From positions 62,001 through 126,000 of the forward strand of contig RYFE02000006.1 of NCBI GenBank assembly GCA_004138175.2: DNA of 64,000 nt. The letters are read 5' to 3'. The notes beneath the pieces were generated by a model that had not been told where the DNA came from, did not search any database, and worked only from the letters and a program-made list of their open reading frames with translations. The translations under genes and the position numbers were made by a program. The DNA comes from Chloroflexales bacterium ZM16-3. GTDB taxonomy: Bacteria; Chloroflexota; Chloroflexia; Chloroflexales; Chloroflexaceae. This document shows positions 1 through 6,723 of this stretch, in pieces (the first letter of the stretch is position 1; each line of letters opens with the position of its first letter).

Positions 1-271
1 CACTGATCTTCACCCGGTCGCCGAGCTGCATCTCGTCAAGGCGTCGCCAGCTCTCGTCGGGTAGCATCAGGCGGTGGTTGAACGAGCCCTCCAGCTCCAG
101 CCCGCGGCGGGTGCGGATCTTCACCGTCTCGTAGTCTTCGAACTTCGCCCAGTCGTAGATCTGCTGGCGCTCTTCGCCATCGCTCACAGAAGTGTCGATT
201 TTTTTATCGACAACTTCACTTATTGTCAAAAAGCCTCTATGCGTCCATATGCGCTGTTTCGAGGAAAGGCA
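1..271 (-). other. Intein N-terminal splicing (Hint) domain inside spoVR
   Basis: The Cys codon at 271-269 follows Ala280 of the extein. The next 90 codons read as an intein start. Block A is [19 protein letters not shown] (Cys1, then T-x-x-G-x-x-x-I). Block B is [14 protein letters not shown], with the His of the usual T-x-x-H motif at intein residue 66 and Ser in place of the Thr. [13 protein letters not shown] matches the L-x-x-G-D-x-V beta strand that closes the N-terminal splicing region. Codons 1-30 are AT-rich (AAA, ATA, AGA, ACA, AGT) unlike the host gene. The endonuclease region, blocks F/G and the C-extein are outside the window, so a full, mini or split intein are all possible. A non-splicing Hint fusion is less likely, because the insertion sits exactly in a catalytic-type conserved motif. 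Confidence 0.88.
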
Positions 272-1111
272 GGCCCATCCTTCGTTGATGACCTTGGTCA
301 TCCCCTGGGGCGCGAAGTAGTAGGCCTCATCGCGGATGATCTCCAGGACGGTGTGCTGCCAGCGGTCGAGGGGCGCGTAGTTCATCAGGAAGAGCAGGAT
401 GTCGCGCTGGGGGTTCTCGGGGAAGCGGCGCAGCTTGGCCCGCTCGTCCTCGATCTTCTTGCGCTGGGCGGCCATGTACTCGGGCGGGTTGATATAGTCG
501 CGCATATAGCCGCGATCAACCTTGAGGCCCTGGGCCGTCTCTTCCTCGACCTCGGCCGCGCCCGCCGCAGGCAGCTGGGACTGAGCCTCGGGCCGCTTGA
601 TGTAGGGCGAGTGGTAGTCGATCAGGTTCTCCAGCGAGAGGCATGTGTCGATAAAGTCCTCGACGACATCGTAGCCGATGCGGTCGATGATGCGCTGGAT
701 GCGCGTGGCGTGGTTGGCCATCGCGTCGAGCATCTTGCGGTTCGTGTGGGAGAACCACATGTTGTTCTTAAAAAAGTCGACGTGGCCGGTGACGTGGGCC
801 ATCACCATCTTCTGGGTCACGTCCTCGTTACCCTCCAGCAGGTAGGCGTACGACGGGTTGGTGTTAATCACCATCTCGTAGATCGTGGAGCCCTGCCAGA
901 TATGGCCCTTCATCAGCTGGTCAAAGTCCATGCCGAAGCGCCAGTGCGGGTAGCGCGTGGGGAACCCGCCCATCGACGCCGTCTCGTAGAGGGTGCGATA
1001 GTCGAGCACCTCGTAGATGATCGGGAAGAAGTCGAGGCCGTAGGCGCGGGCGTGGGCCTCAATCTGCTCACGGGCGGCCTCCAGGTTCGGCGGGATGCGG
1101 GTATTTTTCAT
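1..1111 (-). CDS. spoVR: SpoVR/YcgB family protein, interrupted by an intein, 3' end outside window
   Basis: The frame is open from ATG at 1111 to the window edge. Residues 1-280 match the SpoVR family: an N-terminal region with HVTGHVDFF (about 106-114) and the conserved KVINEGWA ending at Ala280. SpoVR proteins continue from NEGWA with S/T-[FY]-W-H; here Cys281 opens a Hint/intein sequence instead (listed separately). The start has GGGGAG four bases upstream and lies 12 bases after the preceding membrane-protein gene. It is the fourth gene of the prkA operon; prkA, DUF444 and spoVR homologues form a widely conserved stress triad (yeaG, yeaH, ycgB in enterobacteria). SpoVR was named for spore cortex formation in Bacillus, but its biochemical role is not established. 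The rest of the intein and the C-extein are beyond base 1, so whether the protein is spliced cannot be seen here. Confidence 0.9.
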
Positions 1112-1123
1112 GCGGCTCCCCTA

Positions 1124-3373
1124 TCACCACGAGACACGTAGGATGGCTCGAAAGATCAGGCTATGGGCGAAGAGCCCGGCGATCATCAGGGCAGCGAGGG
1201 CGATCTGGCTGCGGCGATCCGTCTCTCTCATGATACCATCGGCCAGAGCCGCCGCAAGAAGAATATGGCTGAAGAGCCAGATCCGCTCGACCTCGCGGTA
1301 GAACAGGCCGGAGAGCAGCATCCCGCCCAGCAGCGCGGCCATCCCGGCCCAGATCGCGTCGGCGGGGCGCGGGCTGCCGGCGACGATCTGGCCGACGCCC
1401 CGCCGCGCGCCGACAAGCAGCCGGTGCAGCGGCCAAGGGCCGAGAAAGCATCCGTAGGCCACGGCGTTCACCGCCAGGAAGAACAGGTAGCTCGACAGGC
1501 CCAGCGGCGAGACGCGCCCGCCGACATCAAGCTTGTTGTTGGCCATGCCCATGAAGAAGGCGGCGAGGCTGTTGTAGCCGCTAAGCAGCCAGACCGCGCC
1601 GAGGGACAGCATCACGGTGCCGGCCACGGCGGCGGCCAGACCTAGCCAGCGCAGCAGGTCGGCCCGGCCGACCGGGCCAGCGCGCAGCCGCCAGAGCGCC
1701 AGGGCTAGGGCCACCAGCCCCAGCATGAGCGTGGTGAAGCTGAGCAGCAGGCCGAGGGCGATGAATAGGCCGGCGAGAAGAGCGAAGAGGCCCTCACCCC
1801 CCCGGCCCCCCTCTCCCGCTGCGGCGGGAGAGGGGGGAGTTGACTCCCCTCTCCCCTTGTGGGAGAGGGGCTGGGGGTGAGGGGGCACAAACGTCGCGTA
1901 CAGCGCCCAGGTGGCCCCGGCCAGAACTGTGGCCAGCAGGGCGTCCATCGAGGTGGCGGCGTAGATCATGGAGGCAGGCAGCAGGGCGTAGATCGCGGCC
2001 GCCAGCACCCCGGCGGGCCAGCCGCTCAGGCGGCGGGCCAGCAGGTAGGTCGGCCAGACGCCCAGGGCGGACAGGGCGATCACCGCCCAGGTGGCGGGCT
2101 GCGGCCCGGCCCCCAGGGTGCGCTCGACGGCCCAGAGGAACAGCGTGTTGCCCGGCGGGTGGGTCTTATTGTGCAGCACCAGGTCGGGCATGGCCGCCAC
2201 GTAGCCGCGCAGGAAGCCCAGCGGGTCGCCGCCGACGCGGGGCACATCGCGGATGTAGTCGCCCTCCTGGAGCGCGAAGGTCTGGAAGAGCGAGTCCCAG
2301 CCGCGAATGGACGTCTTGAGGGTCACGGGCAGGGCGGCGGCGGCCAGCCAGCTCGCGCCGATGACCAGGGCGGCAGGCGGCGGGGTGTCCCGGCGCAGCC
2401 AGGCGACGACGGCGGCGGCGAAGATCGCGAACAGGCCGACGGGCAGGGCGGCGGCCCACGAGATTGCGGTGCCTGCGCGAGCCATCAGCGGGAAGGGCCA
2501 GAAGTAGCCGGGCAGGTTCGCCAGCGCATTCCAGCCGATGCCGAGCAGGGCTGCGGCCAGGGCCACGCCGAGCAACTCGCCCTGCCAGGCGCTCAGGCGC
2601 GGCGCGGCGGACTGGTAGGCGATGAGCGCCCCAAGGGTGAGGGCCAGGGATACGGCGGCGAAGGCGCTCCAGAAGGGCAAGTTGGGGGCCACGCGCATAG
2701 TGCCGCCGAGCAGCCCCGCGCCGACCAGGGCCAGCGGCACGAGCGCGAGCAGAAAGCCCAGCAGCCTCGGCAGGTCGATCCGGCGCAGCAGCCAGTAGCC
2801 GCCGACGGCGAGCCAGAGGTTCACCGCCAGCTGGCCGTAGGGCGGCGCGGCCGGGCCGATCTTCCAGAGCTCAGCCGAGCGCAGGCCGACCCCGACCACC
2901 CGGCCCTGGCCGGGGTCAACCGTCGCGCTGATCAGCGTGAGGCAGACCGGGCCGGGCTGGGGGCCGGGCGGCGTGAGCAGACGGTAGCGGCGGCTCTCTG
3001 GCGCGATCTGGAGCGGCACCGTCAGATCGGCCATGCGCAGGTTAGCCCGGTCGATCCCGGCTACCTCGCTACCGAGAAGATCGAGCTGGAGGATGCCGAC
3101 CGGGCGAGTGGCCCCGGCCGCCGGCAGGCAGACCGTGCCCTCGCCCTTTGTCCAGCGGTAGGGGGCCGGTGTGTCGGCCGCCTCAAGCGACTGAAAGCCG
3201 GAGAAGAGGCCGAGGATGCGGTCGTCGGCGCGCACCTGGGTGTGGTAGGCACCGCCGTAGTAGGCCAGGGTGAGGGCCAGGGCCAGCAGGCCGAGCAGCA
3301 GCGGCGGGGCGACGGCCCAGGGCGTGCGCGCGACCGAGCGGGTTTGGATGGCGGCGAGGGGCAGGCTGCTCAC
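1124..3373 (-). CDS. Large multi-pass membrane protein, GT39/ArnT-like glycosyltransferase fold
   Basis: 749 residues with one N-terminal membrane segment (about 20-45), a roughly 150-residue extracytoplasmic beta-type domain, then about ten further membrane helices. The motif [12 protein letters not shown] (about residues 400-412) is typical of dolichyl-phosphate-mannosyltransferase-like proteins of Chloroflexota; donor and acceptor are unknown. It starts with GTG overlapping the DUF444 stop (GTGA), so it is translationally coupled within the prkA operon, an unusual partner for that set. Residues about 496-529 ([11 protein letters not shown] followed by a Gly/Pro-rich run) are encoded by a dispersed hairpin repeat read in frame. 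The N-terminal pattern F-x-x-F...YRWT...G is shared with the protein at 47674-49728, so the two are probably paralogues. Confidence 0.72.
1786..1886. repeat. Palindromic dispersed repeat inserted in frame in a coding sequence
   Basis: Paired C-rich and G-rich blocks (CCCTCACCCCC ... GGGGGTGAGGG) surround two smaller inverted pairs based on CTCTCCC and GGGAGAG. The same repeat family occurs non-coding at 30104-30150 and 30252-30296. Here it has no stop codon in the gene frame and adds about 33 residues to the membrane protein. Confidence 0.75.
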
Positions 3374-4482
3374 TTCCCCTTGCCCAGGAAATCCTTGATC
3401 GTGTCGTAGACATCATCACGATCAGTGATCTCGCTGACCACGATCCGCTCGTCGCCGCCGAGGTACTCCTCGATATCGTGGGCGAAGCGGCCTGACCCGT
3501 AGAGCGAGCGCACCTGCCCGTAGCAGAACTGGTTCACCTTGGGCAGCAGCTCTTTCTTGAGCAGCTCAACGCACTCGCGGGTATCGCCACCGCCCCAGTT
3601 ATCGCCATCAGAAAAGTGGAAGGGATAGATATTCCACTCGTCGGAGGGGTAGCGCTCATCGATCAGGCGGTTGCAGAGCTTGTAGGCCGAGGAGATCTTC
3701 GTGCCGCCGCCCTCGCGGATATGGTAGAAGGTCTCCTGGTCAACCTCCTTCGCCGCCGCGTCGTGGACGACGTAGCGGATCTCGATCTCCTTATACTGCG
3801 AGCGCAGCCAGGTCTCGATCCAGAAGGCGGTGATGCGGACAAGCTCCTTCTGCTCGGTGCCCATCGAGCCGGAGACATCCATCATATAGATGATCACGGC
3901 ATTGCTCTCGGGGAGCATCGTCTCCTTCCAGGAGCGGTAGCGCATATCATCGCGGATAGGCACGATGATCGGGTCGTCGCTATCGTACTCGCCGGAGGAG
4001 ATCTGGCGGCGCAGGGCCTCGCGGTAGGTGCGCTTAAAGTGGCGCAGCGAGTTGGGGCCGGTGCGGCGGATGCCGCTGTACTTGTCCTTCTCGCTGACCA
4101 GGTTCTTGCGGCCCTTGGGCTGGATGTTGGGCAGCTGGAGCTCCTCGCCGAGGATGGCGGCCAGCTCATCGAGGGTGATGTCCACCTCCAGGGCGTGCTG
4201 GCCGGGCTCAGAGCCGGCCTGGCCCTGGCCGGGCTGCTGTCCGTCGCCCTGGCCCACCGGGTCGCCCACATCGCCATCGCCCTGGCCCACGCCGCCGCCC
4301 TGCTTAGCGCCGTAGCGGAACTGGGGCAGGTCGATCGTGGGCACGGGGACGCTGACGAAGCGCTTCCCCTGGCGACCAATCATCTCGCCGTGGGACATAT
4401 ACTTGCGCAGATCTTTCTTAATCTTGCCGCGGACGATCTGCTTGAATCGGTTCAGATCGCGGTCGACACGTTTCATTGACAT
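3370..4482 (-). CDS. DUF444 (YeaH) family protein with von Willebrand A-like fold
   Basis: 370 residues. A MIDAS-type motif DVSGSMG is at about 202-208, as in YeaH/UPF0229 proteins (around 420 residues in enterobacteria, so this one is slightly short). Residues 60-95 form a Gly/Gln-rich low-complexity linker. Cytoplasmic; the family partners with the PrkA kinase in stress and starvation responses, although its molecular activity is not established. A strong purine-rich ribosome binding site (AGGGGGAGGGG) lies about ten bases before ATG 4482; an in-frame ATG at 4476 is an alternative. The next gene overlaps its stop by four bases. Confidence 0.9.
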
Positions 4483-4499: not shown

Positions 4500-4632
4500 C
4501 CTAAAGGCTCGTGCGCGCTCGCCTCCGGCGGGGGTTTGGGGGTGGCTTCGCCACCCCCGTAGATATTTTTGGTGATGCTTGGCGGCTTCGCCGCCAAGCA
4601 TCACCAAAAAGCCAGGTCTGGGGCGCAGCCCC
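4500..4632 (-). repeat. Three-hairpin intercistronic element, copy 1 (prkA to DUF444)
   Basis: Read on the minus strand it starts a few bases after the prkA stop. It contains TCTGGGGCTGCGCCCCAG, a long stem with arms TTTTTGGTGATGCTTGGCGG and its complement around a GCGAAGC loop, then GGGGGTGGCGAAGCCACCCCC split across a short loop, and ends CCGGAGG. The copy at 36936-37050 has the same order, loops and linkers (AAAAATATC) but a different middle stem that is still fully paired. Confidence 0.85.
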
Positions 4633-4638
4633 AGATGT

Positions 4639-6723
<2,085 letters not shown>

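Follow-up and report, generated by a model that had tools for sequence, protein, structure and literature searches.

A probable homing intein at the NEGWA motif of SpoVR in Chloroflexales

SpoVR is a stress protein of unknown function. In Chloroflexales bacterium ZM16-3, its reading frame follows the family as far as the NEGWA motif and then continues with a different sequence. Is SpoVR interrupted by an intein, as proposed in a preliminary description of this DNA? And if so, is the insert a mobile element, a regulatory switch or the sign of a broken gene? The window that we have analyzed is a stretch of 64,000 nt, bases 62001-126000 of contig 84 of this genome (G000).

The interrupted SpoVR precursor

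The spoVR gene is a single open frame of 900 amino acids, without any stop codon or frameshift. It runs on past window base 1: The full gene is found in contig 84 at L002:8409-11111, minus strand, and residues 1-370 are encoded by window positions 2-1111. Residues 1-280 are the N-extein, residues 281-680 a 400-residue intein and residues 681-900 the C-extein. The A280 codon (272-274) is the last one before Cys1 of the intein, which starts with C1LSSKQ and ends with GFINHN; the downstream junction is GFINHN/SYWHSTIM (a slash marks the junctions). The intein spans L002:9072-10271, reaching from window base 271 across the window's first base and 929 bases further.

Profile matches to SpoVR and to inteins are well beyond chance. 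PF04293 (SpoVR) matches both sides of the insert, in two stretches (9.7e-121, 403.7 bits), and PF24755 (SpoVR_C) is also found in the precursor (1.3e-8, 35.2 bits). The insert matches LAGLIDADG_3 (PF14528) in two stretches (1.5e-17) and Intein_splicing (PF14890; 5.7e-10, 39.6 bits, cut-off 35.8). The intein_Cterm profile (TIGR01443) is above its cut-off, while intein_Nterm (TIGR01445), which starts at residue 281, is below. The pattern of block A, GSFNHRLML (block B) and LGDRVKIS which had been read after NEGWA is indeed present on the minus strand of the window. The elements that the preliminary description expected before base 1 are also found: two LAGLIDADG motifs (FLGYLCGDG and FLRALYDCDG), block F (VYDISVTETHRY), block G (GFINHN), and a C-extein with the predicted [ST]-[FY]-W-H start, which begins with S-Y-W-H. 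SpoVR proteins of the same genus without intein fuse NEGWA straight to [ST]-[YF]-W-H. With one frame, SpoVR on both sides, and splicing and LAGLIDADG profiles above their cut-offs, the interruption of SpoVR by an intein at NEGWA is confirmed. The features are listed in Table 1.

Table 1. Coordinates of spoVR, its intein and the neighboring genes (window positions unless L002 is given).
Feature	Position	Strand	Remarks
SpoVR C-extein plus stop	L002:8409-9071		Outside the window, before base 1
First 90 of 400 intein residues	1..271	-	Rest of intein upstream of base 1
Intein block B (S-x-x-H)	62..88	-	47-intein alignment
AT-rich, fast-diverging 5' intein patch, first 35 codons	167..271	-	GC3 0.49
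Intein block A with Cys1	212..271	-	TIGR01445 from residue 281, below its cut-off
SpoVR N-extein, residues 1-280, ends TKVINEGWA	272..1111	-	PF04293 residues 9-283
NEGWA codons AACGAAGGATGGGCC	272..286	-	Donor-like flank, read as probably co-converted extein DNA
E277 codon, putative third metal ligand	281-283	-	Structural prediction
H106-V-T-G-H110 motif of SpoVR, putative metal ligands	782..796	-	Sequence; alignments; gluzincin-like model
yeaH (DUF444, VWA)	3370..4482	-	Intein-free in window; relatives carry inteins at DVSG/S
prkA	4639..6723	-	Intein-free in window; relatives carry inteins at three sites
AT-rich synonymous patch in intein-free prkA	5650..5710	-	Centered on prkA-c site, junction GH/TN between 5679 and 5680

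All class-1 splicing residues are present in the window copy: Cys1, the block-B His, the Asp and His of block F, the terminal His-Asn and Ser+1. In an alignment of same-site inteins, Cys1 and the block-B His are kept in 47 of 47 sequences, and the block-F Asp and His, the terminal His-Asn and a Ser or Cys at +1 are kept across the alignment. On the other hand, block A of the window copy does not have the usual Thr, and its block B is S-F-N-H, with Ser instead of the common Thr. These atypical residues and the very fast divergence of the first 31 codons make efficient splicing of this copy less sure. Both LAGLIDADG motifs retain their acidic residues. Judged by its sequence, the insert is a class-1 intein with an embedded DOD (two-motif LAGLIDADG) homing endonuclease, and we infer that the intein splices and the endonuclease cuts today.

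The endonuclease half is closest by sequence to the solved TliVMA and PhoVMA inteins (E 8.5e-19). Using an AlphaFold model of a relative, the Chloroflexaceae precursor L150 (pLDDT 68 for the whole model, higher over most of the intein), the TliVMA intein is the best Foldseek match (1.4e-20), followed by PI-PfuI, PI-SceI, I-DmoI and the RecA and DnaB mini-inteins, so that the insert, as seen in this relative, appears to have a Hint fold. TliVMA and PhoVMA (Thermococcales V-ATPase subunit A; PDB 7qsu, 7qss, 7qst), the best structural and sequence match to the SpoVR intein family, also consist of Hint with an embedded two-motif LAGLIDADG, but host protein and insertion site are different and identity is only about 20%. 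GyrA, DnaB and RecA-type inteins (GyrA_w_intein, PRK07773; PDB 2imz, 6frg) have the class-1 architecture and a similar endonuclease region or Hint fold, but their hosts are proteins of replication and recombination.

We consider it very probable that this is a class-1 DOD-endonuclease intein, inserted in frame at NEGWA/SYWH, which splices out and homes between spoVR alleles. The precursor would be translated as a single chain, Cys1 would attack the Ala-Cys bond, the N-extein would be passed to Ser+1 and Asn400 would cyclise, releasing the 400 amino acid intein and leaving a normal SpoVR of 500 amino acids. The endonuclease would cut intein-free spoVR at the conserved NEGWA/SYWH codons, and repair would copy the intein into the cut allele together with a short flank. 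In this way the intein would be maintained through homing among related alleles, for which spoVR copies carried by phages are a plausible route, while decaying in some lineages and being lost in others.

Flanks, distribution and decay

The preliminary description noted a switch to AT-rich codons at the junction. The switch is real, but it is confined to the first 31–35 or so codons of the intein: GC3 is 0.49 there and rises to 0.91 over the 55 codons that follow; the N-extein has 0.92. Over its full length the intein has 62.9% GC, similar to the exteins with 62.0% and 59.8%. Among Chloroflexales copies, the 5' AT-rich pattern is common to G000, G238, G288, G370 and G375. An origin from repeats was rejected, as there are no notable repeats in the patch. 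Outside two patches, the G000 and G238 inteins have about 96% DNA identity; inside them, in codons 1-31 and approximately 101-163, identity is about 50-70%. These patches correspond to window 167-271, over block A, and to L002:9780-9970, a helix-turn-helix-like stretch preceding the endonuclease. Synonymous divergence is also far higher within both patches. They look like mosaic recombination with divergent inteins, local hypermutation being an alternative that these data allow. As an observation apart, a palindromic GC-rich repeat is found at window positions 1795-1890, approximately, translated in frame within a membrane-protein gene (1124-3373).

The last extein codons, GAA GGA, are atypical, as had been noted, and common to intein-bearing relatives; the five closest carriers have the identical flank GAAGGATGGGCC/AGCTACTGGCA. 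The sister pair G288 (with intein) and G024 (without intein) allows a comparison: Up to 18 bp from the junction, a distance which was chosen afterwards, 9 of 9 informative sites of G288 match intein-bearing G000, while beyond 18 bp 44 sites match G000 and 84 of 128 match the sister (Fisher p = 1.2e-4). These donor-like flanks, of some 18 bp on each side, look like co-conversion, and a short co-converted flank would explain the GAA GGA codons.

SpoVR is found in 114 of the 400 Chloroflexota genomes analyzed, and 35 of these 114 have an intein at the same site, mostly in frames of about 780-930 amino acids; the 35 carriers include G212, whose frame is broken within the intein, and G251, where the gene is split over two contigs. 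In the genus of the window genome, the intein is present in G000, G238 and G288 and absent from G012 and G024. The empty NEGWA site is seen in the intein-free SpoVRs of G012, G024, G086, G190 and G347. Presence and absence require at least 16 changes on an extein tree with 77 tips, and even sisters differ, as in the case of G288 and G024. This distribution is as expected of a selfish homing element.

A wider survey used a DNA pattern for NEGWAC across GTDB genomes. Among the matches listed, same-site inteins are found in Myxococcota (including MAGs labelled Deltaproteobacteria), a planctomycete, Bipolaricaulota, Armatimonadota, Acidobacteria, beta- and gammaproteobacteria and haloarchaea; most of the gammaproteobacterial matches listed are intein-free NEGWACFWH. 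Proteobacterial inteins end in HN/C, in keeping with their Cys at +1. In one order of haloarchaea, about 11 out of 121 SpoVR genes are interrupted at the NEGWA site. In their deep branches, the intein and extein trees are broadly congruent: In both, Chloroflexales group with Myxococcota, haloarchaea and the planctomycete, against f24 and f43 with Fimbriimonadales. This agreement suggests that long-range spread of the intein may have been together with the spoVR gene rather than alone.

In several genomes (G052, G078, G110, G206, G214, G334 and others) the endonuclease is reduced or mutated and the splicing residues are intact. Decay is recurrent: Inteins are shortened to 274-287 amino acids and acidic motifs are lost, with the splicing residues kept, which is the usual homing cycle. 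We have also seen frames broken inside the intein in L225 (yeaH of G124), L057 (spoVR of G212) and L175 (Acidobacteria spoVR), due to either sequencing error or decay. The window genome has two other Intein_splicing matches (G000:C84:39795-40898 and G000:C41:23018-23992), one of them about 20 kb from spoVR.

Same-site inteins are also found on viral contigs. A scan of IMG/VR detected 308 viral contigs with a SpoVR relative. The same-site intein is complete in L238, L245, L254, L269, L277 and L281, and truncated where the locus ends in L251, L253, L259, L262, L268 and L272. Phage SpoVR inteins occur at two further sites, VIN/T and directly after HxxxH; the IMG/VR contigs with inteins at extra sites are L238, L253, L338, L340, L342, L343 and L251, and L238, L253 and L251 have two inteins within one SpoVR. 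The 636-kb phage LR756504.1 has a mini-intein of 129 amino acids two codons upstream of the NEGWA site, at NEG/. Two viral rows cluster with betaproteobacterial inteins in the tree (99/99), and in Thermus phage MN1 spoVR adjoins a serine protein kinase gene. From these sequences phages are plausible carriers of the spoVR intein. A close phage or plasmid donor of the window intein was rejected: INPHARED and PLSDB gave distant inteins, with identity of about 34% at most.

The stress operon and a possible switch

In M1 enzymes, the zinc ligands come from HExxH and from the Glu of a NEG motif. SpoVR has H106-x3-H110 and N276-E277-G278, both His being invariant in alignments. A structure search found no solved SpoVR structure, and Foldseek gave no significant match with a model of intein-free SpoVR (pLDDT 70, pTM 0.67). 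A second look at this model with VIA-align, the one source of the gluzincin resemblance, gave M1 metallopeptidases as best matches (Z 10-12), followed by other gluzincins. Since HVTGH does not have the catalytic Glu of the HExxH motif, the resemblance does not imply peptidase activity. We infer a putative metal site, and the intein follows its presumed zinc ligand E277 at a distance of three residues.

Unspliced SpoVR should therefore be inactive, and the intein might have been co-opted as a post-translational switch which frees active SpoVR, and in some lineages also PrkA and YeaH, under redox, heat or starvation. Conditional splicing is reported for other inteins (PMC8557812, for example), and splicing residues persist in SpoVR inteins whose endonuclease is ruined. 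But any host which needs SpoVR must keep splicing, so retained splicing is no evidence of regulation, and the patchy presence of the intein, absent from close sisters, also speaks against a switch.

The same cluster offers a further argument for a switch: In two genomes, G116 and G188, every one of the three proteins of this stress operon (SpoVR, PrkA and YeaH) is intein-bearing. The operon accounts for 3 of the approximately 6 intein-bearing frames in G116 and 3 of about 8 in G188. PrkA inteins, found in 23 of the 114 genomes in our tally, occupy three sites in relatives of the window genome: DPK/C...HN/SQD, LK/C...HN/CDEKF and GH/S...HN/TNEPEY. The PrkA of G084 carries two inteins. In YeaH the intein is located in the MIDAS motif of the VWA domain, DVSG/C...HN/SMGE, as verified by sequence in G116, G188 and G041. 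PrkA and YeaH inteins are found in loci L219 (G116), L220 (G188), L209 and L221 (G084), L222 (G041), L196 (G288), L197 (G024) and L198 (G012). SpoVR and PrkA inteins are found together in 6 genomes, against a chance expectation of about 7, given 35 carriers of the former and 23 of the latter in 114 genomes. Coupled inheritance is rejected and both inteins look independent, which argues against a coordinated switch. We consider the switch unlikely, and stress-conditional splicing of SpoVR is speculation. Even less probable is a broader proposal, in which the prkA-yeaH-spoVR stress operon (one machine, phage-borne) is a preferred intein target, with inteins at the putative SpoVR metal-site motifs, the YeaH MIDAS and the PrkA AAA+ core blocking function until a stress-dependent signal for splicing.

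The AT-rich patch of prkA in the window is absent from its closest relatives; it could be the scar of a conversion or of a lost intein. We should also note a hairpin-like repeat of about 115 bp in the intergenic region at window 4519-4634, approximately, which is found scattered, in dozens of copies, in G024, G012, G238 and G375.

A degenerate intein unable to splice, which would leave SpoVR as a pseudogene in progress, might account for the unusual block A and the fast-evolving N-terminal patch. This is very improbable: The 900 codons contain no stop or frameshift and all the catalytic residues are kept, extein dN/dS between G000 and G238 is 0.06-0.07, which indicates strong purifying selection, and the larger intein segments have values of 0.07-0.22 (in the last 40 codons changes are too scarce to tell). 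An assembly chimera or mis-binning which fused an intein fragment to SpoVR, suggested by the composition shift at the junction, has a negligible probability, since the same structure is found in dozens of independent assemblies, including the single-contig genomes G110, G126, G230 and G352. We therefore reject both a broken SpoVR and an assembly artefact.

A new host protein for inteins

The SpoVR insert is most likely an ordinary homing intein, at a host site which seems undescribed. No paper linking inteins with SpoVR or PrkA appeared in our search of openly accessible literature; within that scope the insertion site appears undescribed, in line with the earlier suggestion that it might be new. 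A search of NCBIfam profiles showed an intein exception model for GyrA and none for SpoVR. A survey of haloarchaeal inteins (PMC4071816) describes 24 sites in 13 genes, whose alleles are like the SpoVR intein site-specific, patchy and horizontally spread, and include mini-inteins. The word 'sporulation' is absent from that survey, and the haloarchaeal SpoVR allele appears to be additional to those described there. We are apparently dealing with a canonical LAGLIDADG intein at an unreported host site.

This host protein and site are common to bacteria, archaea and phages, and go beyond the usual hosts in replication and nucleotide metabolism. In Chloroflexota alone, one conserved stress operon has at least five insertion sites. 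The many close pairs of genomes with and without intein are natural material for tests of homing and conditional splicing. Finally, inteins tend to be found at residues which are critical for function, and the insertion site together with the gluzincin-like fold model provides a testable clue to the activity of SpoVR.
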